Counted from the stretch's first letter, positions 1 through 14,946 are shown. The stretch is DNA of 39,060 nt from Nitrospira sp. CG24A (GCA_002869925.2 NEWT02000016.1:431-39490); one strand, 5' to 3'. Numbers and translations: made by a program. Notes: generated from the sequence alone by a model not told the origin.

Positions 1-375
1 CGCCGTGGCGTTCGCGCTGTTCTCGTCGAGTGCCACCGTCGCGTCTACGATGGAGGGGGCGTTGTCGTTCAGATTGTTCAGGTTCACCGTGATCGCCGCC
101 GTATCGGTGAGGGTCCCGTCGCTCGCCTGCACGGTCAGGGTAAAGCTCGGCGTGGTTTCGAAGTCGAGGGCCGCGCTGCTCGCCACCGTGATCGCCCCGG
201 TCGCCGCGTTGATCGCAAAGGCCCCGCCCGTGTTGCCCGCCGTAATACTGTAGGTGAGGGCCTGGCCGTCCCGATCGAGGTCGGTCCCCGTGAAGCTGTC
301 GCTCACGTTCGTCACCGCCGTGGCGTTCGCGCTGTTCTCGTCGAGTGCCACCGTCGCGTCTACGATGGAGGGGGC
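1..375 (-). repeat. Tandem cadherin-like repeat with perfect 60-bp DNA identity
   Basis: Bases 1-60 are identical to bases 316-375, giving a 315-bp (105-residue) period. The unit reads as a cadherin-like domain, with DENSANATAV near its start and LDFETTPSFTLTVQASDG near its end. The array evidently continues past the window. Perfect identity suggests recent duplication or gene conversion. Confidence 0.85.
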
Positions 376-3300
376 ATCGTTCACCGCCGCCACGGTAATT
401 GCCACTGAGTCTGTATCGGTCAGGCTCAAGTCGCTGGCCAGATTGGCTAGCTCAGTTGCACTTAGGACGCGATTATAGAGGCGGACATCGTCCAGATTAC
501 CCGTTGCGTACCACTTCCCACCGGAAGAATCCTGATTGCGGCCGATGGCCATGGCATCCAGGCTGGACACATTGCTGAAAAATCTCTGGGTCGACGCATT
601 CCCGGTATCGTAGGTCAGCTGCCCTGAGGTGGCGAGTACCCCGTCGACGTACAACAAAATTCCTGAAGCGCCCACCGTGACTGCTACATAGTGCCAGTTT
701 CCATCGTTAATAGGGGCACTGCTCCGATAAACCGCCAACTGCATGACCCCGTTTTCCATGACCTCGTATGTAAGGTACCCCGAGGCTCCCAGGAACAATG
801 CGGCGTAGCTCCCGGTATCGGCGGTGTCGGAGACGGAGAAAATCGTTTCAAAGGTGCCAGTGGTCTTGATCCATCCGGAAATGGTGCCCTGCGTGAATCC
901 TGCAAAGTCGGCCGTATGGGACGATACGTCGACGTAATCGTTGACGCCGTTGAGGCTAAGTACCTGGCCTCTGGTGCCATCGGTAACCGTGGTGGCTCCA
1001 TTAGTCAATGTACCGCTCTGCGCCGTCCCGGGCGCGACATCGTTCGCATTCCCTTCGAACGTGTAGCGGGCCTGGAGATTGGCATCGATGTCGAGCGAGA
1101 CAAGCGTATTGTCGCGAGTCGCGATGGTCAGCGTGGCGCCACCGTTGAAGTCAGCCGTCGGGATGTAGGTGAGACCGTTCAACGCCGTGTTGATATTCGT
1201 CACCGTGCCACGGAAGGTCATCGTCGTATCGGTCGTGCCGTCGCCGTTGGTGAAGGTCAGGTTCGTTGTGCCGGATAAGCTGAGGACGCCATTGGTGACC
1301 GAGAGCGTCACTTCGACCGGATTACTGCCGGCATCAAGATCGCTGATGGAAATCTGGTTGCTGGTGCCGGAGGAGAAGACAAGATTCACATCTTCATTGG
1401 TGCTCTGCGCGCCGGGCACGGTGTTCACCGGCGCAGAGTTCGCAACTGCCGTGTTAAGGCTGAACTCCGATGTGTTGTTGGTCGAGTCGGTGGCCGTGGC
1501 GGTCACCCGATCGCCTGTGATCAATGTGCCCACGGCAAATGTGAAGGAGAATTGTCGGGCCGTGGCATCGACCGTGCCGGGCGTCGCGCCGCTCACTATG
1601 CCACGTCCGATGAAGGTCTGACCCTCACCATTGGCGCCTGCCGCGTCGGGGCTTTCGAAAAATTCCACGGTGGCTCCTGGCCGTGCCTCACCGGTGATCG
1701 TGACGCTGCCGCCGGAGATCGTGACGCTGTAGATCACCGGAAAATTCATCAGGTTGTTGCCACCGGTGTCACCATCACCGGCGTCGTTCGCGGTGAGGCC
1801 CTGAGGGCCAATGTCGATCCCCTGCTCGGTGTTGCTATAGATGCTGTTGCCGAGGAAGGCGTTCCCGGTGCCGGAACCGTTCAGGCGAATCCCGTCCCAT
1901 CCGCTATTGGCAATGAGGTTGCCCATGGCCGACAGGGTTCCGCCGACGATGGTGTTCGCGGCTCCGGCGTCGAGGTAGATGCCTGCTTGGGTGTTGCCGC
2001 GCGCGAGGGCGCCCGTCGCATCCGTGCCGATGTAATTGCCGCGGACCAGCGTGCCCGTGGTCCCAGCGCCGGTGATCTCGATGCCATAGGAGCCACTGCT
2101 CGCGATGATGTTCCGCTCGGCGGTGTCGTTCGTGCCATCGGCGTTGGTGCCGATGAGCGTGCCCGTCGAAGCGTCCCTAACTTGAATGCCATCACCGCCA
2201 TTCATCAGCGAAGTCGCGCCATCGGACCCGACGCCGATGTAATTGCCCTGAATGGTCGCGCTCGTGGCGGCATTGCCGACGAGCACACCGATGCCGAGGT
2301 TTCCCGAGATCACGTTGCGCGCGCCGGCCGCGCCGCCGCCGAGCACGTTACCGGTGCCCGCGCCCCAGAATGAGAATCCGCCGTTGGTATTGCCCAACGC
2401 TGCAAGGCCGGTCGCCGTCGTCCCGATGTAGTTGCCCTGCACCACGTTGTTCAGCGAGGTGGCGTTTAAAATCTCGACGCCATAGTGATTGTTTCCCGAG
2501 ATCACGTTGCGCGCATTCGCACTCGTGCCGCCGACCGTGTTCCCGCTTGAGCCGTTGCCGATGTAGATGCCGCTCTGCAGCGTGTTCGGCCCGGTTCCGG
2601 TCACATCGCCGGTGCCGGCAACATTGGTGCCGATGTAGTTTCCCGAGATGGTGCTGTTGTCGGTGTTGTCGAAAAGGATGCCCTGCTGCGCATTGCCCGA
2701 GATCACATTGCGCTCCGCCGCCGTCGTGCCGCCGATGAGCAACCCGCTGCTATTGAGCGCGTAGATGCCTTCCCCACCGTTCGCCGAAGCGGCGGCGCCC
2801 GCGGCGTTCAGCCCGAGCCAGTTGCCCTGGATGGTGTGATTGCTCGAGCCGAGGATGTCGATGGCGGTGCCGGTGAAGCGATTGATCGTCAGCCCCCGGA
2901 TCGTGCTGCCGCTGCTGCCCGCGCCCAGTTCGAGGCCCTTGACGCCGCTGCCAAAGTTGCCGCCATTCAGCTCGATCACCGGCGTGCCGGCAAAATCGGG
3001 TTCGCTCCAGCCGTCGATGATGATCGCGTCGGTGATGATCGGCAGCGCATCGGGCACCGTGCCGGCATCGGGACCGTCGTAGGCGAGCGTGATGGTATGC
3101 ACCCCGCCGACGAGCGCGTCGGGGATGTTGAAAAGGATGGTGTCCGTGCCGGCGGTGTTATTCGCGGCGAGGATCGCTTCGCGCAGCGAGATGCGACCGT
3201 CCGCGCCTTTATTCGCGACGAGCGCCGCGATGGAAGTCGGCGTGCCGTCGAGCACGTCGTTCGCCGTCGTCACGGCGAACACCTGCGCCGCGACATTCAC

Positions 3301-6300
3301 GGAAAACTCGGAGGTATTGCCCGACCCATCCATCGCGGTGCCCGTGACGCGATCGCCGGCCACGATCGAGCCGACCACAAAGGTGAACGAAAATTGCCGT
3401 GCCGTGGCATCGACCGTGCCCGCCGTCGAGCCGCTCACCGTGCCGCGACCGAGGAAGGTCTGCCCCTGGCCATTCGTGCCGGCGGCATTGGGCGTTTCAA
3501 AGAAATCCACCGTCGCGCCGGGCCGCGCCTCGCCGGTGATCGTGACGTTCCCGCCGACGATGACGACGCCGTAGATCACCGGGAAGTTCATCAGGTTGTT
3601 GTCGCCCGTGTCGCCATCGCCCGCGTCATTCAAGCTGATCCCATCGGTGCCGAGGTCGATGCCCTGGATGCTGTTGGAAAAGATCGAATTGCCCTGGATC
3701 GCCACGCCGGTCGCGCTGCCGATGAGCCGCACGCCATACCGGTTGTTGGCGATGAGATTCCCCGCGCCGCTGGCCGTGCCGCCGATCGTCACCGAAGTCG
3801 ATCCACTCACGGACACGCCGCCGTAGTAATTGCCGAGCGCGGTGGTGCCGTCGGCTCCGACGCCGAGGTAATTGCCTTGAATGACGGTGCCGGAACCGCC
3901 GGTGACGTAGATGCCGTCCGCCAAAGCGACGCCGTTGTCATTTCCCGCGATGACATTGCGCGCGCCCGCGGTCGTGCCGCCGATGATCGTGCCGACGGCG
4001 TTGCTGAGGTCGATGCCGTCCCCGTCGTTGCGCAGGCTGGCCGTGCCCGCGGCGTTGGTGCCGATGAAGTTGCCCTGAATGACGGTGCCGATCGACGCCG
4101 CGCCGTTGACGGAGATGCCCTGCACCGCGTTGCCCGAGATCAGATTACCCATGCCGATCCCGCCGATGATGACGCCGGCCGCATTGTCGATGCCGATGCC
4201 GTGCTGGCCGTTGCCGAGATCAATCGTCCCGGTGAGATCGGTCCCGATGTAGTTGTTGCGGATGATCGTGGCCGTCGCGCCGGTGAGGGAGATGCCGCGA
4301 AGTCCACTGCCCGCGATGACATTGCGATCCGCCGCCGTCGCGCCGCCGATGGTATTGGCCGCGCCGATCACCTCGATGCCGTATCCCGTATTGGCCTCGG
4401 CGGCTCCGGCATCGCCGCCCGTGGCGGTCAGCCGTCCGATGAAGTTGCCGGCGAAAGTGCTGTTATCGGAGTTGGCGGAAACCTCGATGCCGTCCCCGCC
4501 GAAGTCGCGAATGACCAGCCCGCGAATCGTGCTGCCGTCCGCCGTCGAGGTGAGCGTCAGCGCATTCACGGCCAGATCGTTGCCGTCGAGCACGATCACC
4601 GGCGTGCTCGTAAAATCCGGCTCGGTCGTGCCGTCGATGACGACTGCTTGCGCGATGGTGGGCAGCGCGTCCGCCACCGTGCCCGCGTCGACCCCGTCGT
4701 AGGTCACGTTGAACGTGTGCGGCCCGGCGCCGGAGATATTGAAAAGGATGAGATCGATCCCGGCGGTGTTGCCCGCCGCAGTCATCGCTTCGCGCAGCGA
4801 GATGCTGCCGCCGCCCGGCGTGGTGAGGAGGTTCGCGACGGAACTCGTGTCGCCGTCGAGGGCGTCGCTCGTGGTCGTGACGACGAGCGCCTGATTCACC
4901 GTCGAGATGTTGGCCGCGAACTCCGAAGTCTCGACGGGATTGAACGACGCATCGAGCCGCGTGGCCGTCGCCGAGATCACCGCGCCCGTCGCGACATTGG
5001 CAAAGATCTCCGTGCCCCAGGTCGCGTTGCCCGAGGCATCCGTGCGCACATTCACAAAGCCGAGATAGGTCTGCCCCTCACCATTGCCGGAAGCATCGCC
5101 CGCGGTGTTCGAGAAGATCTCGATTCGATAGTTGGTGCTCACAGCGCTGGCGAGCGTGCCCCCCACCGCCAACCGATTGCTGGCATTCGTCACTGCGCGG
5201 GTCAGCACGGGAAAGTTCTGCAGATTGTTCGCGCCGGTGTCGGCGTCATGCGGTGGTGTTGGAGGCGTTGCGCTGATGTCGTTAGCAGTGACGCCGTCTG
5301 CGTTCAGATCAATTCCGAGCGAGCTGTTGGAGAAGATCGAATTTCTGAGGAAGCTGTTGCCGACGCCGTCAGCAACCCGCATACCTCGACCGGTGCTGAA
5401 GGCGATGATGTTGCCCGCACCGGCGGCCGTTCCGCCGATCATGTTGTTGTTGGTTCCCGCATCGACGATGCGGATATTTTCGGTTGAGTTGGCAAGGGCG
5501 AGCGTACCCGTCACATCGGTGCCAATGTAGTTGCCCGAGACAACGTTGTTGTGGGCACCGAGGTTGATGCGCACCCCCTGCGTGTTGTTACCGGAGATGA
5601 GATTCCTCTCCGCAGCCGTGGTGCCACCAATCACGTTGTTGAAAGCGGTCGCGCCTTCGATCCGTAAGCCGACGAACGAATTACCGAGATCGGCTGTTCC
5701 AGCAACGTTGGTACCGACGTAATTTCCTTGGATGACGTTGCTGTTGCCGGTAACGACCAAGCCGTCGTCCCCGAAGCGATTGATGACGAGCCCGCGAATC
5801 GTACTGTTGTTTGCCGCAAGGGTTAGGCCGTCAACCGCACCCGCCGACGTGCCGTTCAATTCGATGATCGGCGTGCCGGAAAAGTCGGGCTCGCTCCAGC
5901 CGTCGATGATGACCGTGTCGGTGATGGTCGGCAGCACTAAGGCAACATTGATCGTGTGTGGTCCGGTGCCAGCGATGTTGAATGCAATCGTGTCGGTCAC
6001 CCCGACGCTGGCATTGGCTTGGGTGATGGCCCAGCGCAACGTACCGACAGTCGTATCGGCGCCCACTCCATCGAAGGTACTGGTGACCGTGTACGTAGCC
6101 AGCACATGATCCCATGCCGATTGCGCGTATGACCCGATGATCACCGACGTTTCGATACCGCCTGTCGTCGCCTCCAGGACCCAATCCCCTGTTTGCCCAG
6201 CATGTCCAGTATAATCTGTGCTGGCGGCAACATCTGCGCCCGTAAGAGCGGCCAACGTTTGGATGGCCGCCTCCCCGGCTTCACCGCGACCAAAGTTACA

Positions 6301-6933
6301 GCCGTAGATCAGGAGGTCGGCATCCGCCGATAAGGTCCGGCCGATCTGTTGAAACTGTTCGGCGTAGCGTGCGCTGATCGAGTTTTGCGTCAGGAAGCTA
6401 GCTCCGAGGTGCATTTCGGCTTCGGTGCCGTCGCCGACCAGGTGGATAGCGTCAATGCCAGTCCGACCGGTGAGCGCTTCCGCCATTTGCGACACGCCGT
6501 CGCGGGCAGGATCGAGGATGATCACCTCGGCGTTGGGACTGATGCCGTCGAGGAGCTGCTGGTAGTCGCGAACGCTGGGGGATAGGAACAGGATCTCCTG
6601 GCGAGCTGCCGAGGTATCGTACGCCGCCAGGGCATCGAATAACGCTTGGTCGCCTGTGCTGGGTTGCGGTTCGCCCGTCGGGGCAGCGGGCGTGCTGTCA
6701 TCTGACGTCGAGTCATCGACCCCGAAGGACGCATCAGCCTGGCTTTGCGCGATTTGCTCAGTGGTCACGGTACCAACCGTGGCCACGGCAGCGCCGTCGA
6801 ACATGATGCGCGACTCGAGCGCCAGCAACGAACCGGCGAACGTTGACAAGGGGGTATGCGCGCCCGCGGAGGCAGAACGATGCCCTCGTGTTGGCGTGAC
6901 CGACCTTTTCTTATTCCTACGTAGTATCCTCAT
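1..6933 (-). CDS. Giant DUF4347 / beta-helix / LamG / cadherin-like surface protein (C-terminus beyond window)
   Basis: The frame stays open for 2311 codons from an ATG at 6933 to the window edge, so the C-terminus is missing. In order I read a basic N-terminus with an LEPR-XLL-like motif (LESRIMFDGA, residues 39-48), a low-complexity linker, a DUF4347 domain (about 111-270) and three blocks that each open with a CSLREA-like motif (GTLRWAITQAN, ISLREAMTAAG, ISLREAILAAN). The blocks continue with beta-helix repeats of the GNYIGT...GN...IGGT...RNVISGN type. Then come a cadherin-like region, a LamG domain (about 480-1050 in DNA) and at least one 105-residue cadherin-like repeat. There is no classical cleavable signal peptide. 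It is probably an exported adhesin or matrix protein. The gene follows the M50/HlyD/TolC operon on the same strand after a 197-bp gap, which suggests it is the cargo. The start is supported by the conserved motif, not by a good ribosome binding site. Confidence 0.88.
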   Translation of the reverse strand, partial: MRILRRNKKRSVTPTRGHRSASAGAHTPLSTFAGSLLALESRIMFDGAAVATVGTVTTEQIAQSQADASFGVDDSTSDDSTPAAPTGEPQPSTGDQALFDALAAYDTSAARQEILFLSPSVRDYQQLLDGISPNAEVIILDPARDGVSQMAEALTGRTGIDAIHLVGDGTEAEMHLGASFLTQNSISARYAEQFQQIGRTLSADADLLIYGCNFGRGEAGEAAIQTLAALTGADVAASTDYTGHAGQTGDWVLEATTGGIETSVIIGSYAQSAWDHVLATYTVTSTFDGVGADTTVGTLRWAITQANASVGVTDTIAFNIAGTGPHTINVALVLPTITDTVIIDGWSEPDFSGTPIIELNGTSAGAVDGLTLAANNSTIRGLVINRFGDDGLVVTGNSNVIQGNYVGTNVAGTADLGNSFVGLRIEGATAFNNVIGGTTAAERNLISGNNTQGVRINLGAHNNVVSGNYIGTDVTGTLALANSTENIRIVDAGTNNNMIGGTAAGAGNIIAFSTGRGMRVADGVGNSFLRNSIFSNSSLGIDLNADGVTANDISATPPTPPHDADTGANNLQNFPVLTRAVTNASNRLAVGGTLASAVSTNYRIEIFSNTAGDASGNGEGQTYLGFVNVRTDASGNATWGTEIFANVATGAVISATATRLDASFNPVETSEFAANISTVNQALVVTTTSDALDGDTSSVANLLTTPGGGSISLREAMTAAGNTAGIDLILFNISGAGPHTFNVTYDGVDAGTVADALPTIAQAVVIDGTTEPDFTSTPVIVLDGNDLAVNALTLTSTADGSTIRGLVIRDFGGDGIEVSANSDNSTFAGNFIGRLTATGGDAGAAEANTGYGIEVIGAANTIGGATAADRNVIAGSGLRGISLTGATATIIRNNYIGTDLTGTIDLGNGQHGIGIDNAAGVIIGGIGMGNLISGNAVQGISVNGAASIGTVIQGNFIGTNAAGTASLRNDGDGIDLSNAVGTIIGGTTAGARNVIAGNDNGVALADGIYVTGGSGTVIQGNYLGVGADGTTALGNYYGGVSVSGSTSVTIGGTASGAGNLIANNRYGVRLIGSATGVAIQGNSIFSNSIQGIDLGTDGISLNDAGDGDTGDNNLMNFPVIYGVVIVGGNVTITGEARPGATVDFFETPNAAGTNGQGQTFLGRGTVSGSTAGTVDATARQFSFTFVVGSIVAGDRVTGTAMDGSGNTSEFSVNVAAQVFAVTTANDVLDGTPTSIAALVANKGADGRISLREAILAANNTAGTDTILFNIPDALVGGVHTITLAYDGPDAGTVPDALPIITDAIIIDGWSEPDFAGTPVIELNGGNFGSGVKGLELGAGSSGSTIRGLTINRFTGTAIDILGSSNHTIQGNWLGLNAAGAAASANGGEGIYALNSSGLLIGGTTAAERNVISGNAQQGILFDNTDNSTISGNYIGTNVAGTGDVTGTGPNTLQSGIYIGNGSSGNTVGGTSANARNVISGNNHYGVEILNATSLNNVVQGNYIGTTATGLAALGNTNGGFSFWGAGTGNVLGGGAAGARNVISGNLGIGVLVGNAATSATIQGNYIGVGSDGATSLMNGGDGIQVRDASTGTLIGTNADGTNDTAERNIIASSGSYGIEITGAGTTGTLVRGNYIGTDATGALARGNTQAGIYLDAGAANTIVGGTLSAMGNLIANSGWDGIRLNGSGTGNAFLGNSIYSNTEQGIDIGPQGLTANDAGDGDTGGNNLMNFPVIYSVTISGGSVTITGEARPGATVEFFESPDAAGANGEGQTFIGRGIVSGATPGTVDATARQFSFTFAVGTLITGDRVTATATDSTNNTSEFSLNTAVANSAPVNTVPGAQSTNEDVNLVFSSGTSNQISISDLDAGSNPVEVTLSVTNGVLSLSGTTNLTFTNGDGTTDTTMTFRGTVTNINTALNGLTYIPTADFNGGATLTIATRDNTLVSLDIDANLQARYTFEGNANDVAPGTAQSGTLTNGATTVTDGTRGQVLSLNGVNDYVDVSSHTADFAGFTQGTISGWIKTTGTFETIFSVSDTADTGSYAALFLGASGYLTYEVMENGVMQLAVYRSSAPINDGNWHYVAVTVGASGILLYVDGVLATSGQLTYDTGNASTQRFFSNVSSLDAMAIGRNQDSSGGKWYATGNLDDVRLYNRVLSATELANLASDLSLTDTDSVAITVAAVNDAPSIVDATVALDENSANATAVTNVSDSFTGTDLDRDGQALTYSITAGNTGGAFAINAATGAITVASSAALDFETTPSFTLTVQASDGTLTDTAAITVNLNNLNDNAPSIVDATVALDENSANATA
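1440..6105 (-). repeat. Three large intragenic CSLREA/beta-helix blocks
   Basis: Within the giant gene, three blocks at roughly 4910-6105, 3300-4895 and 1440-3290 repeat the same architecture. Each has a CSLREA-like opening, a segment of the type IIDGWSEPDF..TPVIELNG, many GN.IGT.. beta-helix turns, and (in the last two) a closing segment with TGEARPGATV.FFE and GQTF.GRG. Blocks 2 and 3 are clearly similar at DNA level, for example around 1545-1600 and 3390-3450. Block 1 resembles block 3 around 5868-5935 and 2971-3045. This points to growth by internal duplication. Block edges are approximate. Confidence 0.75.
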
Positions 6934-7130
6934 GGCATAGCGACGAGACCACGAGTCCTTGATTCTCCACAAGAATTTAGCAAGGAAAGTGCCACTTCAC
7001 GTAGCGAATTCTGCTTTTATACAGAGCCGTTAGACTCTATCCAGGGGGAGGTTCGCGGAGAGCCGCAGAATGCGCCAGAATACGACAGTTCTGGTGCGTG
7101 GCGCGTCGTCTGCGAAGCAATGAACGCGTG

Positions 7131-9263
7131 TTACGCGCCGCTTTCACGAATGAAGATACGGGCGGTCTGTTCCCAGGCTCGTTGGGCGAAGCTAATACGA
7201 GGGCCTTTCACCAGCACGGTCCCTCGCACCGCTTGGTTCCATTGGGGCGGAGACTCGACGAGGTGCAGCGTGACGCGATAGACAGAGATTTCCAGTTTCA
7301 AGCGATGATGGGCATCTTCACGAACCGGCACCTCTCCGCCATAGACTGAGAGGAGGTAGGGCACCGTGAAGCTGCGTTCGTCGATGTCTCGAATCTCGGC
7401 AACCTGCGCCTCTACGCTAGGCCGATCCGAACCCTCGGGGATGAATCGAGCTGATTGACCGGTGTGAAGATAGCCCACCACCGTCTCAGGAGCCAGCGCG
7501 TGCAACTCCTCACCAGCCGGATCGATCACATACGCAATCGCCATCTCCTTGTTGATCCACTGACCCACATGCAGAGCCTCTGCTTGGTCGGTCACCACTC
7601 CCGCAATCGGCGCCGTGAGTGACAGATCCTGCTGCTGCTGGAGGAGGCCTTCGAGCTGTGAGAGGTGAGCCTTCAGCGTCTCCAGCGTGACTTGATGTTT
7701 GGTGAGTGCTTCTCGATCGACGAACTGACGCTGACCTCTCAATCGCTCCACCTCAATCCGCTTGCTGGTCAACGCCATATCCTTTTCAAGCGCCGGGGAT
7801 TCCAGCACCACCAGCCGGTCTCCGACCCCTACTTGTAGCCCTTCTTTCACCGAGAGTTCGACGATCCTCCCAGGCACCGGCGCGTAGATGGTGGCATGTG
7901 GCGTCGATTCCAACACGGCAGGGAGACTGATGCGATCGGACCAGGGCACGAACAGCAAGGCGAGGACGCAGGCCAGCACCCCGGCAGAAAGCCAGCCCCT
8001 GCGACGTTCGACGATCTCTCCACGCATGCTCCACCAGGTCTTCAGTTCCCCCACCATCGGGAGCACGATGAACCACCCGATCTCAACAGCAAAAAGAATG
8101 AGGCCCAGGAGTTTGAAAAAATAGTGATACACCATCAGCGCAATGCCGAGAAACAGCATGAAACGATATGCCCACGCTCCCCAGGCGAAACAGATCAGGA
8201 ATCGGCGTCGGGCCGCGGTCACCGGCTCGGGCATCGGCCTCTCCAGACCGAACAGGAGTCGCCGTAGCTGCCACCGCCCGAAAGCAAAGGCCCGATCGTG
8301 CAAGTTGGGAATGCCCAGCCAGTCGGAGAGCACATAGTACCCATCGAATCGCATGAACGGGCTCAGATTAATAGCTGCGCCGACCATCAAACTCGTGGTC
8401 GCCACGATAAACACCAGGCTTCGCGCCACGCCGTCATCGAGAAAGTTCCATGCGAAGAGCGCTAGGGCAGCCAACGCGCATTCGACGATCATTCCGGCGG
8501 CGCCGATGGCGGCACGCCGGCGACGGAAGGTCAATGTCCACGCATCGGAAGTGTCCGAATACAGCATCGGCACCATCACGACCATGGCAAGGCCCATGGT
8601 GGGAACTCGACAGCCATAGCGCGTCGCCGTATAGGCATGCCCGAGTTCATGGAATATTTTGACGACGGCCAGACAGAGGATATACAGCGCGAATCCACGG
8701 GGGGTGAAAAAATGCAGGGCCGTGGCGACAAACGTATCCCACTGGCGCGAGACCAGGTACAGCCCGATGAGCCCGATCCCGCCGATCGCCCAAGCCACAG
8801 CCGGCGAATAGAGCCAGTTCACGAGCGGGAGCGTGGCGCGGAGGAACCGATCAGGCCGGACCAACGGAATCTGGAAAAACAGATAGTGATGGACCAGCCA
8901 GATCACCCACGAGGGCCGCGCCGCCTCTGCTTGCTCGGCATAGGCTCGATACCCACCCTGCGGCGGATCGCGCATCAAATGGTTGGCGTACAAGAACTTG
9001 AGGAGGTCCTCGACGTCCTGCTTCATAGCCCGGCAGGTCGTGTCGGCGTGGATCTGTGCCAGAACAGTTTCCGCGGATCGGGCCTCCCAGCGCGAGAGAA
9101 TCTGGTAGGCCGCCCAGCCGATCTGAAAGTATTTCCCACGGACTGGATCGACGATCACCCATGTCGGGGAACCATCGGCGGATGAGGCGCCCCCGATGAG
9201 CTGAAGATCCTCACGCAATGGCGGCAGCGCGACATCTTGCTTGAGGAGTGTGGACCGTGTCAT
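7131..9263 (-). CDS. PqqD-like / M50 metalloprotease / HlyD fusion membrane protein
   Basis: This 710-residue protein belongs to the putative peptide zinc metalloprotease type related to YydH. Residues about 30-98 resemble a PqqD-like peptide-binding domain. A multi-pass membrane region follows with the M50 zinc site HELGH (205-209) and the probable third ligand Asp307 in RFDGYY. After a last membrane segment near 425-440, a biotinyl-lipoyl/HlyD region (about 455-560) starts with TIYAPVPGRIVEL and contains a coiled coil. I chose the ATG at 9263 because it overlaps the upstream stop codon as ATGA; the frame runs further upstream only inside the previous gene. It probably cleaves or hands over a substrate at the inner membrane and links to the adaptors and TolC partner. 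The giant DUF4347 protein next door is the obvious candidate substrate. Confidence 0.9.
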   Translation of the reverse strand: MTRSTLLKQDVALPPLREDLQLIGGASSADGSPTWVIVDPVRGKYFQIGWAAYQILSRWEARSAETVLAQIHADTTCRAMKQDVEDLLKFLYANHLMRDPPQGGYRAYAEQAEAARPSWVIWLVHHYLFFQIPLVRPDRFLRATLPLVNWLYSPAVAWAIGGIGLIGLYLVSRQWDTFVATALHFFTPRGFALYILCLAVVKIFHELGHAYTATRYGCRVPTMGLAMVVMVPMLYSDTSDAWTLTFRRRRAAIGAAGMIVECALAALALFAWNFLDDGVARSLVFIVATTSLMVGAAINLSPFMRFDGYYVLSDWLGIPNLHDRAFAFGRWQLRRLLFGLERPMPEPVTAARRRFLICFAWGAWAYRFMLFLGIALMVYHYFFKLLGLILFAVEIGWFIVLPMVGELKTWWSMRGEIVERRRGWLSAGVLACVLALLFVPWSDRISLPAVLESTPHATIYAPVPGRIVELSVKEGLQVGVGDRLVVLESPALEKDMALTSKRIEVERLRGQRQFVDREALTKHQVTLETLKAHLSQLEGLLQQQQDLSLTAPIAGVVTDQAEALHVGQWINKEMAIAYVIDPAGEELHALAPETVVGYLHTGQSARFIPEGSDRPSVEAQVAEIRDIDERSFTVPYLLSVYGGEVPVREDAHHRLKLEISVYRVTLHLVESPPQWNQAVRGTVLVKGPRISFAQRAWEQTARIFIRESGA

Positions 9264-10624
9264 ACGCCGATCCATGGCCGGATGGCGGAAATTGGGCGAC
9301 GGAACAGATAGGTGAAGAGGGTTACTTGCTCTCCGTAAATTTTGGCACTGCCTTGCCAGCCAATACGGAACTCCGACGACCTCTGTTCGAGCTGTGCCGT
9401 CACACGGTAAGCCAGCGTATTGTTCGGCAAGACCTCGGCATGATAGCTCGCATGGCTGATCGTGGAAGGCACACTGGAAAAAGGGTTGGCATTGAGGAAC
9501 AGCGTCGCCGATGCGCCTTCGTGCAGCACGATGGCATCCTCCACCGGGAGATCGATCCGCACTTCCAACTGCTGCGGATTCGCCAATTCCATGATGCGTT
9601 GGCCGACTACAACTGGTTTTCCGATCCAATCGGATTTGTCCGAGTAGAGCAACAGCCCAGCCTGCTCTGCCTTCACCTCAACCTTCGTCAATCGTTCATG
9701 GGCATAGTTCCGCTCGGTTTCTCGCAACTCGACTTCGGCTTTCAACAACGGGACATCGGCTTTTTGCTCAGCGTCTCCGAACGAGCCTTGCGCCGCGCGC
9801 CGGTACTGCGCCATCGCCACATCAAGGTTCCGTTCCGCGACGTCATACTCGCTTCTAAACGTCGTGTCTTCGTACGTGAACAGTACTTGGCCTTCGGACA
9901 CAACGGTATTTGGGAGGACGAGAATCTCGGCGATGACACCGTCGATCGGCGCGCTCACGATCAGAGGATCCTTTGCGACAATCTTCGCAGGCGCCAACGT
10001 CGACATCGGAACGGGAATGGCCAATGCGCCCAGCATGGCCACCGCGAGTATCCACATCGTGGTCCGGCTCAACCCCCATCGCCACCGGCGACTGTTCGAT
10101 GAGCCGACGGCACGCCAGGCATAGGCATAGGCTTCACTGAGTCGCTGCAGGACCGTTGTCTCGTGGTCAGCCCAGGGCTGGTCCAGCGTCAGCCACAGAC
10201 CGCCAAGGATCTGCCCCCCAGGATGCTTGAGAGGACACCACAATCCATAGCCGGGAGTAAATTCCTTCCAGTCTGGTCTAAGCTCGGCAGGACACTCCGC
10301 TTCCGTGATGTGAAGGATGTCAGGCCCCATCGAGGTGTTGCGCAGATCTCGGATCAACCGCTCGGTCCATTGCATCAAGGGCACGGTGCGATCCACCACC
10401 GGCACGCTGGATACGGCTTGCACCTGGTAACTCTGAGCAGATGGGGTCGGCGGGGTCAGTAAAATAGCTTGTCGATAGGGAATCAACCGGCGCGTTTCAT
10501 TGACGAAGAAAAATTGCAGTTCCTGCTGGGTCTGGGCGGCGCGGACCATCCCTTCCAGTTGAAGCAGGACAGAGAGCGCCTGGTTCGTCGGCGGACTATG
10601 AGGCCTGACTTCTGCGGCGATCAT
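9260..10624 (-). CDS. GAF-like domain fused to HlyD-type membrane fusion protein
   Basis: This 454-residue protein has a cytoplasmic GAF-like region (about 20-170), one membrane segment (about 188-206, TMWILAVAMLGALAIPVPM) and a periplasmic HlyD-like part. The lipoyl half-motif is at 220-250 (PLIVSAPIDGVIAEILVLPNTVVSEGQVLF), followed by a helical hairpin and beta-barrel. The ATG at 10624 lies 1 nt after the upstream stop codon, and the stop codon overlaps the next start as ATGA, so translation is probably coupled. A GAF domain on an adaptor is unusual and suggests that the export complex senses a cytoplasmic small molecule or a partner protein. I cannot name the ligand. Confidence 0.85.
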   Translation of the reverse strand: MIAAEVRPHSPPTNQALSVLLQLEGMVRAAQTQQELQFFFVNETRRLIPYRQAILLTPPTPSAQSYQVQAVSSVPVVDRTVPLMQWTERLIRDLRNTSMGPDILHITEAECPAELRPDWKEFTPGYGLWCPLKHPGGQILGGLWLTLDQPWADHETTVLQRLSEAYAYAWRAVGSSNSRRWRWGLSRTTMWILAVAMLGALAIPVPMSTLAPAKIVAKDPLIVSAPIDGVIAEILVLPNTVVSEGQVLFTYEDTTFRSEYDVAERNLDVAMAQYRRAAQGSFGDAEQKADVPLLKAEVELRETERNYAHERLTKVEVKAEQAGLLLYSDKSDWIGKPVVVGQRIMELANPQQLEVRIDLPVEDAIVLHEGASATLFLNANPFSSVPSTISHASYHAEVLPNNTLAYRVTAQLEQRSSEFRIGWQGSAKIYGEQVTLFTYLFRRPISAIRPWIGV

Positions 10625-10625
10625 A

Positions 10626-11414
10626 TCAGTGTGGGAGTTCAGCGAACGAGGCGGTCCCGCTCATCCCCGCAAGCACGTTGTCTGGTTGGGTACGGAACAG
10701 GCCTTTCACCTTCACCGTCTGACTGGCAGGATCGACATTGGCGCCGATGTCCTGAACGACGGCGGGATACCGGAGTCCTGTTTCATCGACGGCGTACTCG
10801 AAAGATGTGCCGACCTTCAGCCACGCCAGGGACTTCGACGGAAGAATCAATTCGATCTCCAGCAGGCTGTCGTCCAACAGGCTGATAAGCTGATCGTTGG
10901 GAAACACATTCTCATGTTCATTCACGATCATTTTGACGACACGCCCGGGAAACGGCGCGCGTACGGTGCAGCCGTTCACCGTAACTTGTGCAACCTTCAC
11001 GGAGGCGAACGCCTTCTCGGCTTCGGCATGAGACACTGCAAGTTCGAGTTCACCGACGGCATGGTGTTTCGCGAGCCGGAGGTTGTTCTCGTAGGTTTTC
11101 TTTTTTCCGCGATATTCCGCTTGGATGCTCGACAGTTCCGCTTCATACTTCGAACAGTCAAGGGAGACCAGGAGGGCGCCTTTCTCAAACCGTTGTCCTT
11201 CTTTGAAGGGCAGTTGACTGATCCGGCCCTGGACCTGGCTGGCCAAGGTCGCTTGTGCGGTTGCCTTTACCAGCCCGCGGATCGTGCTGAGTTCCGCCGC
11301 GCTGCTTGCGGGCTTAGGATCCGATTTGGGAGCGGCTGTTGCCATCACAATCGGTATGAGGAGGCACACGCTCATGACACAGCCGCCGGCCAACCACCAG
11401 CCAATGCGGGTCAC
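10626..11414 (-). CDS. Short HlyD-family periplasmic adaptor (GTG start)
   Basis: This is a 262-residue adaptor with an N-terminal signal or anchor (GWWLAGGCVMSVCLLIPIVMATAAP). It has a lipoyl motif split around a short helical hairpin (QVQGRISQLPFKEGQRFEKGALLVSLD and VRAPFPGRVVKMIVNEHENV) and a beta-barrel ending in GMSGTASF. The frame opens further upstream, but I chose the GTG at 11414. It overlaps the TolC stop codon as GTGA and has AAGGAG 8 nt upstream; the alternative ATG at 11441 has no ribosome binding site. It should bridge the inner-membrane M50/HlyD parts and the outer-membrane TolC-like protein. Confidence 0.87.
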   Translation of the reverse strand: MTRIGWWLAGGCVMSVCLLIPIVMATAAPKSDPKPASSAAELSTIRGLVKATAQATLASQVQGRISQLPFKEGQRFEKGALLVSLDCSKYEAELSSIQAEYRGKKKTYENNLRLAKHHAVGELELAVSHAEAEKAFASVKVAQVTVNGCTVRAPFPGRVVKMIVNEHENVFPNDQLISLLDDSLLEIELILPSKSLAWLKVGTSFEYAVDETGLRYPAVVQDIGANVDPASQTVKVKGLFRTQPDNVLAGMSGTASFAELPH

Positions 11415-12949
11415 TTGAGCAACTCCTTGCTTTTTGCCCATCGTGCCCGAAGTTCGAGGGCAAGATCGGACAGGCTCTGTTCCCGCGTCAGATCGTTGGG
11501 CAAGACATCTTCTCCGACGGCGGCCAGGAGCGAGGCCCAGGACACTTGGAGTTCGGATTCGATAGCATCGTATCGCAATTGCGCCGCGACTTGATTGACT
11601 CGTTCGCGCAGCACCGCCTGTTCGCTCTGCCGTCCGAGCCGCCAACCCAGGCGAGTCTGCTCGGAGATTTGAGATTGCGTTTCGTGATAGAGCTTCGCCG
11701 TCGAGGTTTCTTTCTTCGCGTGTGCCACCTGCGCAACGCTGATATGCACTTGCGACATGATGGCCATGGTCAGCGCAAGTGTCTGCGTGTGCAGAACCTG
11801 ATCTTGCGCTTCAATGGTCTTCGCCCGGGCCGGATACCGGAAGATGCTCAATAAATTCCAGCTGGCCCGAGCGGCATAGGCCGCCCAATTCTGATTGAAG
11901 AGAAACGCATTGCTGTTGTAGTTTCCACCGGCTTGGAGATTCAGGCTGGGGATCATTTCGAGGATCGCCGCTTTGGTTTCTCGCGCGTTGATGCGACGAC
12001 GGTAGTCGATCATCCTCAGCTCCGGACGTGACTCCAGCGCCCGATCTTCCAGCACCGTCATATCGGATGGAAGGTTCAACGCTCCGGCCTCTCGCTCCGG
12101 AACCAGGAGCATCATCTTGCGCTCTTCGCCGGGAGGAAGATTGATGAGCGCGGCCAATTGAAGTTTCGCTGTGGAAAGCTCCCGAAACAGCTGTTGCACA
12201 TAGCGTTGCGTATTGAGGAGGTCCAGCTTGTACTGCAAGGGAACCAGCGGCGTACTGAGCTTCTCGTCCTGAACAGCCTGCGCTTGTTCCAGCGCGTTCT
12301 TCACCCATTCATCCAGCATCTTGAGTGAGGGAAGGATGCGCTCCGCGCTGACCGCGCGCCAATAGGCCACACGCACATCTTGCATGACACGATTGGCGAC
12401 ACGCCGACGCTCTTCTTCGGCGATCAACACGTCATCGGCTGCCTGCTTCGCCCTGATATAGGACAATCCGAAATCCAATACATTCCAACTGAGCGACAGA
12501 TCGGCGGAGAAAATGTTCTTCTCGGCGGAGGTAAACGGTGTGAGATTCTGCGCGCCGGAAATCAAAGACTGCCCGACTCCTCCCGAGAAATTATTGCGGC
12601 CGTCGAATCCTGCGTTCGCTGCAAGACGAGGCAACATGGCATAGTGAGACAGGTCGAGTTGCGTCTGCGCCAGCATCTTGTGCATCAGCTCGACGCGCGC
12701 GTCGAGGTTATACTTCAACGCCCTCGCCATCGCTTCGTAGAGATCAATCGGACCCGAGACAGGCTCTTGATCCTTTGCCACATCCGCCCGGTCTACTTGC
12801 GCTCGTGATCGCACCTCGTCCGCCGTCAACGGTATCGGCTTGATCGCACAACCGCTCAGACCGATGACAGCAAGAATCGTCAGCACGGCCGGTATGCGGG
12901 CGCTCACGCCGAGAGATCGTTCGGCTGAAACATGTGATCCGTTCACCAC
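11411..12949 (-). CDS. TolC-family outer membrane efflux lipoprotein
   Basis: This 512-residue protein has a lipoprotein signal peptide with lipobox LSGC (Cys34) and then two TolC-type repeats rich in long amphipathic helices. It should form the outer-membrane and periplasmic channel of the export system. The start is a GTG at 12949 with AGGA 6 nt upstream; an out-of-frame ATG just upstream meets a stop at once. It is the first gene of the four-gene operon TolC, HlyD, GAF-HlyD, M50-HlyD, all joined by overlaps or a 1-nt gap. Confidence 0.9.
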   Translation of the reverse strand: MVNGSHVSAERSLGVSARIPAVLTILAVIGLSGCAIKPIPLTADEVRSRAQVDRADVAKDQEPVSGPIDLYEAMARALKYNLDARVELMHKMLAQTQLDLSHYAMLPRLAANAGFDGRNNFSGGVGQSLISGAQNLTPFTSAEKNIFSADLSLSWNVLDFGLSYIRAKQAADDVLIAEEERRRVANRVMQDVRVAYWRAVSAERILPSLKMLDEWVKNALEQAQAVQDEKLSTPLVPLQYKLDLLNTQRYVQQLFRELSTAKLQLAALINLPPGEERKMMLLVPEREAGALNLPSDMTVLEDRALESRPELRMIDYRRRINARETKAAILEMIPSLNLQAGGNYNSNAFLFNQNWAAYAARASWNLLSIFRYPARAKTIEAQDQVLHTQTLALTMAIMSQVHISVAQVAHAKKETSTAKLYHETQSQISEQTRLGWRLGRQSEQAVLRERVNQVAAQLRYDAIESELQVSWASLLAAVGEDVLPNDLTREQSLSDLALELRARWAKSKELLK

Positions 12950-13249: not shown

Positions 13250-13609
13250 ATGAAAACGGCAGGATTACCGGCGAATGCAACAAACCTATCCCCGGCAAGC
13301 CCATCGCAACCAAACCAACCCATCACTGCCGGTCCAACGGTCCAGTTCGATGTCTCCAACCTTCAGAGTTCCTACGCGAACGTGTGCAACGTGTCGTCAA
13401 CCCGCGAAGAAGTGGTGCTGGCTTTCGGCGTCAATACTGTGTGGGAGCGTGGGCAGGCGAATATGCAGGTGCAGCTGACGAACCGTATCGTGCTGAATCC
13501 CTATGCCGCGAAGCGGTTAGCAACCGTGCTCACCCGCGTGGTCGCCGAATATGAGGCCAGGTTTGGAGCATTGAAGGATGACCAGAGACCGCAAGCCAAT
13601 GCAGCCTAA
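13250..13609 (+). CDS. DUF3467 family protein
   Basis: This 119-residue protein matches the DUF3467 pattern: SSYANVCNVSSTREEVVLAFG in the middle, then IVLNPYAAKRLATVLTRVVAEYEARFG near the end. The function of the family is not established. I chose the ATG at 13250 because AAAGGAG lies 6 nt upstream; the frame extends upstream without family-like sequence. The N-terminal 30 residues are rich in Pro, Ser and Asn and look disordered. It is divergent from the export operon, so shared regulation is possible but unproven. Confidence 0.8.
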   Translation: MKTAGLPANATNLSPASPSQPNQPITAGPTVQFDVSNLQSSYANVCNVSSTREEVVLAFGVNTVWERGQANMQVQLTNRIVLNPYAAKRLATVLTRVVAEYEARFGALKDDQRPQANAA

Positions 13610-13908: not shown

Positions 13909-14946
13909 GTGGATACCAAGGCAAGAATCATTGCATTCCTCTCGCGAAGCCAATCAGCAACAGGCGGAGCGCTACGCGCCCATCTCAAGCTCAGCCGGCA
14001 AGCAATGAACCTTCACCTCCGCAGTTTACTCACGGACGGCACAGTGTTGCGATCTGGCGCCACCAGGGGGGCTCGTTATATGCTCCCGAATCGAGCGGCC
14101 CAGCCCGCCGTACTGGCTCGCTCTCTTGTGACGCGTGGCTGCGACGAAGATCGTATTTGGGATGAGGTGGAGGTACGCCTTCAGCTTAAACGGACGCTAC
14201 GCCCTAACGTACTGGCCATCATGCGCTATGCGTTTACAGAAATGCTCAATAATGCCATTGAGCATTCACAGGCAGACCGATGCGCCATTCGAGTGGCATT
14301 AAGCCAGAGCCTCGTATCCTTTGAGATCCGCGATCACGGCATCGGGGTCTTTCACTCCATTGCGTCGAAGTTCAAACTTCCCGACGAAGAAGCCGCACTG
14401 ATCGAACTGCTCAAAGGCAGAACCACAACCATGCCGGAGGTCCACACAGGTGAAGGGATTTTTTTCACCTCACGGACCGGTGACGACTTTTCGTTGAAGT
14501 CTCACCGTATCCAAATTGAATGGAAGCGGGCGAAGCAGGACATCTTCGTATCTCAGCCCCGCTTGTCAGCCGGAACACTCGTACGGTTTTCCATCCAACG
14601 CAACGCCAGGCAGACGATTGAAGAAGTGTTCGGCGAGTTCGCTCCGAAGCAATATGATTTCCAGTTCCTGAAGACCCGAGTCCTAATCAAGTTGCTGCAA
14701 CCTGACTATGTTTCTCGTTCCGAGGCGCGGCGTCTCTTGGCGAATTTAGAGAAGTTCAGAGAAATCGTTCTGGACTTTCGTGATGTCCGATCGGTGGGGC
14801 AAGGTTTCGCCGACGAAGTGTTCCGCGTGTTTGCCAGCCGCAATCCCAGTATCGCCATCCATTCTGAGAACACCAGCCCCCCCGTCACAGCCATGATCCG
14901 GCACGTAGGCCATACTGGCAGCGACAAGGCCACGACAGAGCGTTAG
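13909..14946 (+). CDS. HTH / histidine-kinase-like ATPase / DUF4325 regulator
   Basis: This 345-residue protein has three parts. A winged-helix-like DNA-binding region covers about 1-60 (GGALRAHLKLSRQAMNLHLRSLL). A GHKL ATPase domain covers about 85-225, with N-box EMLNNAIEHS (111-120), G1 box DHGIGVF (142-148) and GEGIFF (181-186). A STAS-like DUF4325 domain covers about 255-330 (EIVLDFRDVRSVGQGFADEVFRVF). The arrangement resembles anti-sigma-factor/STAS partner switching fused to a repressor-type HTH. The GTG start has no clear ribosome binding site. The target is unknown, but the AT-rich repeats just upstream suggest autoregulation. It sits beside the DUF3467 gene. Confidence 0.85.
   Translation: MDTKARIIAFLSRSQSATGGALRAHLKLSRQAMNLHLRSLLTDGTVLRSGATRGARYMLPNRAAQPAVLARSLVTRGCDEDRIWDEVEVRLQLKRTLRPNVLAIMRYAFTEMLNNAIEHSQADRCAIRVALSQSLVSFEIRDHGIGVFHSIASKFKLPDEEAALIELLKGRTTTMPEVHTGEGIFFTSRTGDDFSLKSHRIQIEWKRAKQDIFVSQPRLSAGTLVRFSIQRNARQTIEEVFGEFAPKQYDFQFLKTRVLIKLLQPDYVSRSEARRLLANLEKFREIVLDFRDVRSVGQGFADEVFRVFASRNPSIAIHSENTSPPVTAMIRHVGHTGSDKATTER

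Follow-up and report, generated by a model that had tools for sequence, protein, structure and literature searches.

How does a bacterium export a giant surface protein when the genes coupled to it encode an outer-membrane channel, two adaptors and a membrane protease, but no ABC transporter? This question is raised by a stretch of 39,060 nucleotides from Nitrospira sp. CG24A, here called the window, which covers positions 431-39490 of contig C8 (NEWT02000016.1) in a metagenome-assembled genome (MAG) of 3.36 Mb and 40 contigs. We consider it rather probable that the operon in question, TolC, HlyD, GAF-HlyD and PqqD-M50-HlyD, is dedicated to the export and maturation of giant surface proteins with a LEPR-type N-terminal leader. 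Operon and leader-bearing giants occur together in distant bacteria, also where a type I transporter is lacking, which suggests a little-noticed route by which very large proteins are exported and trimmed. Such a role had been proposed in an initial annotation, made from the sequence alone. The association and the absence of an ABC transporter stood up, while the identity of the substrate, the binding of its leader by the PqqD-like domain, cleavage by the M50 protein, secretion as such and the energy source are inferred.

Operon and giant cargo in the window

All five genes named in the initial annotation were found on the minus strand. The features referred to below are the following:

11411-12949, minus strand: TolC-family outer-membrane channel, 512 amino acids (PF02321, E=1.6e-32); first gene of the operon, kept in Nitrospira loci
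10626-11441, minus strand: HlyD/RND-type periplasmic adaptor 1, 271 amino acids (PF13437, E=1.9e-16; TIGR01730, E=1.3e-32)
9260-10624, minus strand: GAF-HlyD adaptor 2 (PF13437, E=5e-14)
7131-9263, minus strand: PqqD-M50-HlyD protein, 710 amino acids (M50 and HlyD_3 matches; structure model)
8964-9221, minus strand: PqqD-like N-terminal domain of this protein, residues 15-100 (PF05402), candidate leader-binding module
8637-8651, minus strand: HELGH zinc motif, residues 205-209, invariant in 31 homologs
7194-7946, minus strand: C-terminal HlyD/membrane fusion protein (MFP) domain, MacA/ZneB/HlyD fold, Z about 14
1-6933, minus strand: giant DUF4347/beta-helix/LamG-like protein (the cargo), at least 2311 amino acids, running off the window and the contig
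6790-6819, minus strand: leader motif LESRIMFDGA, residues 39-48, after a basic N-terminus; conserved in cargoes
6100-6594, minus strand: DUF4347 domain, caspase/CHAT-like fold (PF14252, E=1.9e-51)

Neighbouring operon genes overlap slightly or are one base apart. The start of adaptor 1 was set at MGKKQGV and overlaps the end of the TolC gene, and the GAF-HlyD and PqqD-M50-HlyD genes are joined by an ATGA overlap. About 200 bases separate the M50 gene from the start of the giant gene (ATG at 6933, MRILRRNKKR), the frame of which is open to the window start. The window ends on this side 430 bases before the end of the contig, so the 3' part of the giant gene is absent from the assembly. A second copy of the whole five-gene unit lies on contig C29 of the same genome (L056), with a sequencing gap within its cargo. 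Scanning for an operon promoter or terminator gave results at chance level.

Adaptor 2 has a cytosolic GAF-like domain at about residues 1-180, one transmembrane segment at 185-203 and then the HlyD domain. The GAF domain, already noticed earlier, was borne out by homologs: PF01590 was matched in 14 of 26 (best 1.9e-6) and exceeds the Pfam cut-off in those of the divergent operon type described below.

The protease

The catalytic zinc site of the M50 protein is intact. In addition to HELGH, the third zinc ligand D307, within NLSPFMRFDGY, is invariant in the 31 homologs; the HExxH motif, the distal Asp and a match to PF02163 place the protein among the M50 (site-2) proteases. A divergent M50 type retains HExxH and D-G-Y in nearly all cases. 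The label PqqD for the N-terminal domain is probably right, as had been proposed, although the match is weak: PF05402 was the top Pfam match, with E=0.003 in the window protein and 1.6e-6 in homolog L090, and distant homologs are publicly annotated as "PqqD family protein". Profiles of the PqqD and GAF domains gave no useful match among PDB sequences. A fold search with the M50 model returned matches for the MFP half alone and barely probed the M50 and PqqD parts.

The leader

Fifty-three distinct cargoes have the motif in the form LExRxxFD[GA]A. Leader calls here and below were made with regular expressions, which were composed after the first cases were known. Cargoes met together with the operon in Nitrospira carry LE[SPQ]R[IL][ML]FD[GA]A behind a basic stretch, and giants encoded far from the operon in Nitrospira share it with one exception, L073. 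Across taxa, giants next to the operon mostly start with LExR-x-x-[F/Y/L]-D; variants include LESRQLFDGA in E. coli, LEPRLLYDAA in Cupriavidus, LEPRVVYDAS in Burkholderia and LEPRMLFDGA in Kosakonia. The term LEPR-XLL, first used for the window cargo, is only loosely right: the cargo itself gave no match to the LEPR-XLL model NF012209, but L076, with the same operon type, passed it (19.9 versus a cut-off of 17), and L075, L088 and L089 fell slightly below.

Association of operon, cargo and leader type

Among 198 genomes of Nitrospirota a strong M50-HlyD match was found in 27, and DUF4347 was present in 26 of these versus 3 of the 171 others (Fisher p=4e-28). When only the same family was considered, DUF4347 was present in 24/25 M50-positive and 0/22 M50-negative genomes (p=1.6e-12); since the genomes are related, both p-values overstate independence. 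For 25 of 29 M50 copies, a DUF4347 gene followed downstream at a distance of a few kb at most. Association of the leader motif with the M50-HlyD operon, on which the initial annotation had staked its proposal, was strong, and the motif subtype tracks the M50 clade.

The latter became visible when 321 genomes of the class to which a Comamonadaceae MAG with the operon belongs, the gammaproteobacterial sample, were scanned for DUF4347 and 34 loci were read. The loci fell into three groups by leader. FDGA-type leaders mostly belonged to genomes or loci that have an M50 of the window type; LEPRxLLSAD leaders formed a second group, eight of which adjoin a divergent M50-HlyD gene; DUF4347 proteins without a leader formed the third, with M50 in the fetched stretch in 0/8. 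Weaker M50 types are under-counted, since only a few candidates in each genome were scored in the M50 scan. NF012209 matched the LLSAD group and, weakly, several of the FDGA group. In an M50 tree built by a quick method, 36 FDGA-type rows were parted from 7 LLSAD-type rows by one branch (support 100; 0/500 shuffles). This match of leader type and M50 clade agrees with recognition of the leader by the M50 protein. DUF4347 as the determinant of the pairing was rejected: the leader-bearing cargo of L021 has no recognisable DUF4347, and leaderless DUF4347 proteins have no M50 nearby.

Distribution of the operon

The M50 protein was found in 45 loci, many of them MAG fragments. Nearly all come from Nitrospira, and these have the order TolC-HlyD-GAF-HlyD-M50-cargo wherever the contig was long enough. 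Nitrospira loci form two paralogous groups, about 50% identical. An apparent loss of the cargo in L014 was explained by a run of N in the assembly. Geobacteraceae and the Comamonadaceae MAG have the same genes with the giant upstream, the M50 frame being interrupted in the MAG. A plasmid-borne set of giant, TolC, HlyD, HlyD and M50 was found in Azospirillum, Variovorax, Burkholderia, Kosakonia and E. coli, as well as in Cupriavidus, where it is not annotated. The M50 gene is also present on Citrobacter plasmids, and the E. coli gene was matched in 24 of 5426 complete E. coli genomes, mostly on plasmids. Leader-bearing giants with the operon are also present in other gammaproteobacteria. On enterobacterial plasmids the operon (L085, NZ_CP081687.1, and the 24 E. 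coli genomes) comes with a giant some 4,460 residues long that contains only one cysteine, and a tandem-95 protein gene of 48.7 kb stands directly upstream of the Variovorax operon (L083:1-10715; CP063167.1 19413-68132).

DUF4347 and the C-terminus of the cargo

Two features of the cargoes had been passed over in the initial annotation, the caspase-like nature of DUF4347 and a probable membrane anchor at the C-terminus in Nitrospira. The predicted fold of DUF4347 is caspase-like (clan CD), with Z 11.6 to Tce1, 8.8 and 8.0 to CHAT proteins and about 6.5 to caspases. Tce1 (PA0256) of Pseudomonas aeruginosa carries DUF4347 (PMC8262886); it has been reported as a putative cysteine protease, with His and Cys forming a dyad (PMC13323088). 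Cys212 of the window cargo (6298-6300) is the sole cysteine among the 2311 residues read, and the dyad cysteine is the single one in the read part of 33 of 50 leader-bearing giants, which argues for its retention for function.

The window cargo is cut off before any C-terminal secretion signal could be read. The C-terminus of most complete Nitrospira cargoes is a conserved hydrophobic segment with a basic tail behind it, seen in 14 complete cargoes; the segment is probably an inner-membrane helix, with a hydropathy that is borderline in several of them. Proteobacterial giants (L082, L085, L086, L088, L089, L101) show, by eye only, a short [SA][FL]xxQ[LVI]-like pattern in place of the membrane helix, with endings such as SFTDQIRQLA, SFSEQLQQSA and SLAAQVDALA.

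Possible mechanism

TolC and HlyD domains are known from their families as an envelope-spanning conduit, and would form one here, with the M50-HlyD protein as the inner-membrane component. We put forward only tentatively that diderm bacteria have here a novel kind of one-step exporter, in which this protease-MFP fusion replaces the ABC transporter: it would read the leader through its PqqD-like domain, cut it, and hand on to TolC proteins that are several thousand residues long. The cytosolic PqqD-like domain would most likely bind the basic LExR-x-x-F-D-G-A leader, the site-2-type zinc protease would most likely trim it, and the GAF domain of adaptor 2 would most likely gate the system. The giant would be delivered N-terminus first and, in Nitrospira, stay tethered by its C-terminal membrane helix with the basic tail; the caspase-like DUF4347 domain, which follows the leader, is likely to serve as a processing site within the giant itself. 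A dedicated type I ABC transporter would not be needed. The system could be energised by the proton-motive force, by extracellular folding or by a partner that escaped recognition.

Alternative explanations

The TolC-family channel and the HlyD-family adaptors are parts that a type I system has too, and a conventional ABC transporter encoded elsewhere might export the giant, leaving to the M50 operon only the conduit or the trimming. The window genome indeed holds one complete HlyB-HlyD-TolC set, on contig C9 (TIGR01846, 1025 bits), with no giant beside it, and RTX-like repeats are present in some cargoes. However, the C9 set comes with its own HlyD and TolC. As had been noted for the window, a type I ABC gene is absent from the surroundings of the Nitrospira operons, including that of the closed chromosome CP092081, where opposite-strand genes follow the unit. 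Three genomes of 98-99% completeness with operon and cargo (G117, G137, G191) have no HlyB- or PrtD-type ABC protein, MsbA-like ones only, and HlyB-positive relatives without the operon had DUF4347 in 0/12. Among 15 gammaproteobacterial carriers, the completeness of which is not known, no type I ABC gene was seen in 12; it is present in G315 and G392 and doubtful in G423. The operon clusters on the plasmids of E. coli, Burkholderia, Cupriavidus and Kosakonia, and in other gammaproteobacteria, contain no ABC gene. ABC genes seen in L034, L046, L056 and L103 were rejected as part of the operon, as they are not conserved and some are ABC-F-like. We therefore regard export by a type I transporter in trans as quite improbable.

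Transport by Sec or another general translocase through an unusual signal, with the operon in charge of processing and outer-membrane passage only, would account for the lack of an ATPase in the operon and for the positively charged N-terminus, and insertion into a membrane would suit the C-terminal helix with its basic tail. Against this, no Sec-like hydrophobic core was found near the leader in 69 cargoes, that of the window included (best 12-residue mean at most 1.93, versus a minimum of 2.07 in 15 TolC/HlyD controls), and the leader subtype tracks the M50 subtype, which makes this route unlikely. Still further from the data is the idea that the product exported through the operon is a small peptide or some other molecule, as in daptide or bacteriocin clusters, and that the giant is a neighbour with related ecology. 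PqqD modules do serve in systems for ribosomally synthesised and post-translationally modified peptides, and the M50 protein resembles the daptide intramembrane metalloprotease model NF041824 (165 bits, E=2.8e-48; cut-off 300). On the other hand, the giant is nearly always present and shares the leader even if encoded elsewhere, and no recurrent small precursor gene was seen beside the operon, though no systematic search was made; we give this idea hardly any weight.

Several observations nevertheless speak against a dedicated machine for leader-bearing giants. The operon genes include no energy source, and an ABC exporter of another family may act in trans. Some giants next to the operon lack the leader (Phyllobacterium; a HrpK-like protein). 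In gammaproteobacteria M50 accompanied the motif in 10 of 25 cases versus 0 of 8 without it, at p=0.07 only, and DUF4347 occurred without the window-type M50 in 31 of 39 genomes, part of which carry the divergent type. The pairing of FDGA and LLSAD leaders with M50 clades counts as one evolutionary event, since it stems from a single deep split. The C-terminal anchor was not found in proteobacterial giants. Finally, the window cargo has lost the catalytic His of DUF4347, with GDG in place of HG, so it lacks the His-Gly...Gly-Cys dyad, both residues of which are present in most homologs; the Cys is kept, and the domain may be inactive or altered since the His is Asp.

Neighbouring genes

One gene outside the operon may be accessory to it:

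13250-13609, plus strand: DUF3467 gene, divergent from the operon (PF11950, E=2.8e-21)

This gene is divergent from TolC in the window-type Nitrospira loci and also lies between giant and HlyD in a divergent-type operon of Methylosinus (L090:9363-9683). A SecB-like origin of DUF3467 was rejected, as its sequence profile gave no such PDB relative. At 13909-14946 on the plus strand a HATPase protein with a STAS-like DUF4325 domain adjoins the operon. A sensor protein with a common N-terminus (..LLSIGLVSLTVSIMLAGD..) was seen at L010:9785-12672, L014:12651-15505, L076:14525-16072, L080:6908-9543 and L127:11020-14148; in many Nitrospira loci it begins immediately behind the cargo, and in a gammaproteobacterium it adjoins an LLSAD-type giant. 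It carries PAS/histidine-kinase domains, joined in L010 by a receiver/HisKA partner, and is a likely regulator. Other Nitrospira cargoes (L020:16528-19398 and similar) are followed by genes for a class A penicillin-binding protein and a bactofilin.

Comparison with known systems and implications

Type I secretion of giant adhesins of the LapA/BapA/SiiE type likewise clusters a TolC-type channel and an HlyD-type adaptor with a giant repeat surface protein. The present system differs in having no ABC transporter, a protease-adaptor fusion as the inner-membrane partner and an N-terminal signal. Retention of LapA-type adhesins is N-terminal, whereas the Nitrospira anchor is C-terminal. LEPR-XLL proteins (NF012209) also carry an N-terminal LEPR motif on giants; the model matches giants of the divergent M50 type and one of the window type, whereas the window leader, LESRIMFDGA, falls outside it. 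M50 peptidases of the daptide/YydH type are likewise intramembrane metalloproteases with a part that is PqqD-like or handles leaders, but here M50 is fused to an MFP domain and its partner is a large protein, not a peptide. Peptidase-containing ABC transporters (C39, of bacteriocin and type I systems) unite recognition of the leader, its cleavage and export in a single inner-membrane protein, with a cysteine protease where our operon has a zinc protease, and with an ATPase domain that is absent here. Tce1, of type VI secretion, and the CHAT/caspase-fold proteases share the DUF4347 fold and His/Cys layout, while in our cargoes DUF4347 sits within a giant protein behind an export-type leader. 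In the literature searched, which left most subscription journals outside, no paper described the pairing of M50-HlyD and leader or linked LEPR-XLL (NF012209) to M50-HlyD.

Environmental bacteria commonly encode giant LEPR-XLL, DUF4347 and tandem-95 proteins, which are also found on enterobacterial plasmids. These proteins now have a candidate machine, a leader and a testable rule, that the leader subtype pairs with the M50 subtype. If true, this would add an export route that lacks the defining ATPase of type I secretion, and DUF4347 would gain a plausible role as a caspase-like processing domain. In Nitrospira, which is central to nitrification, the operon is present in one or two copies, and some genomes encode several cargoes.

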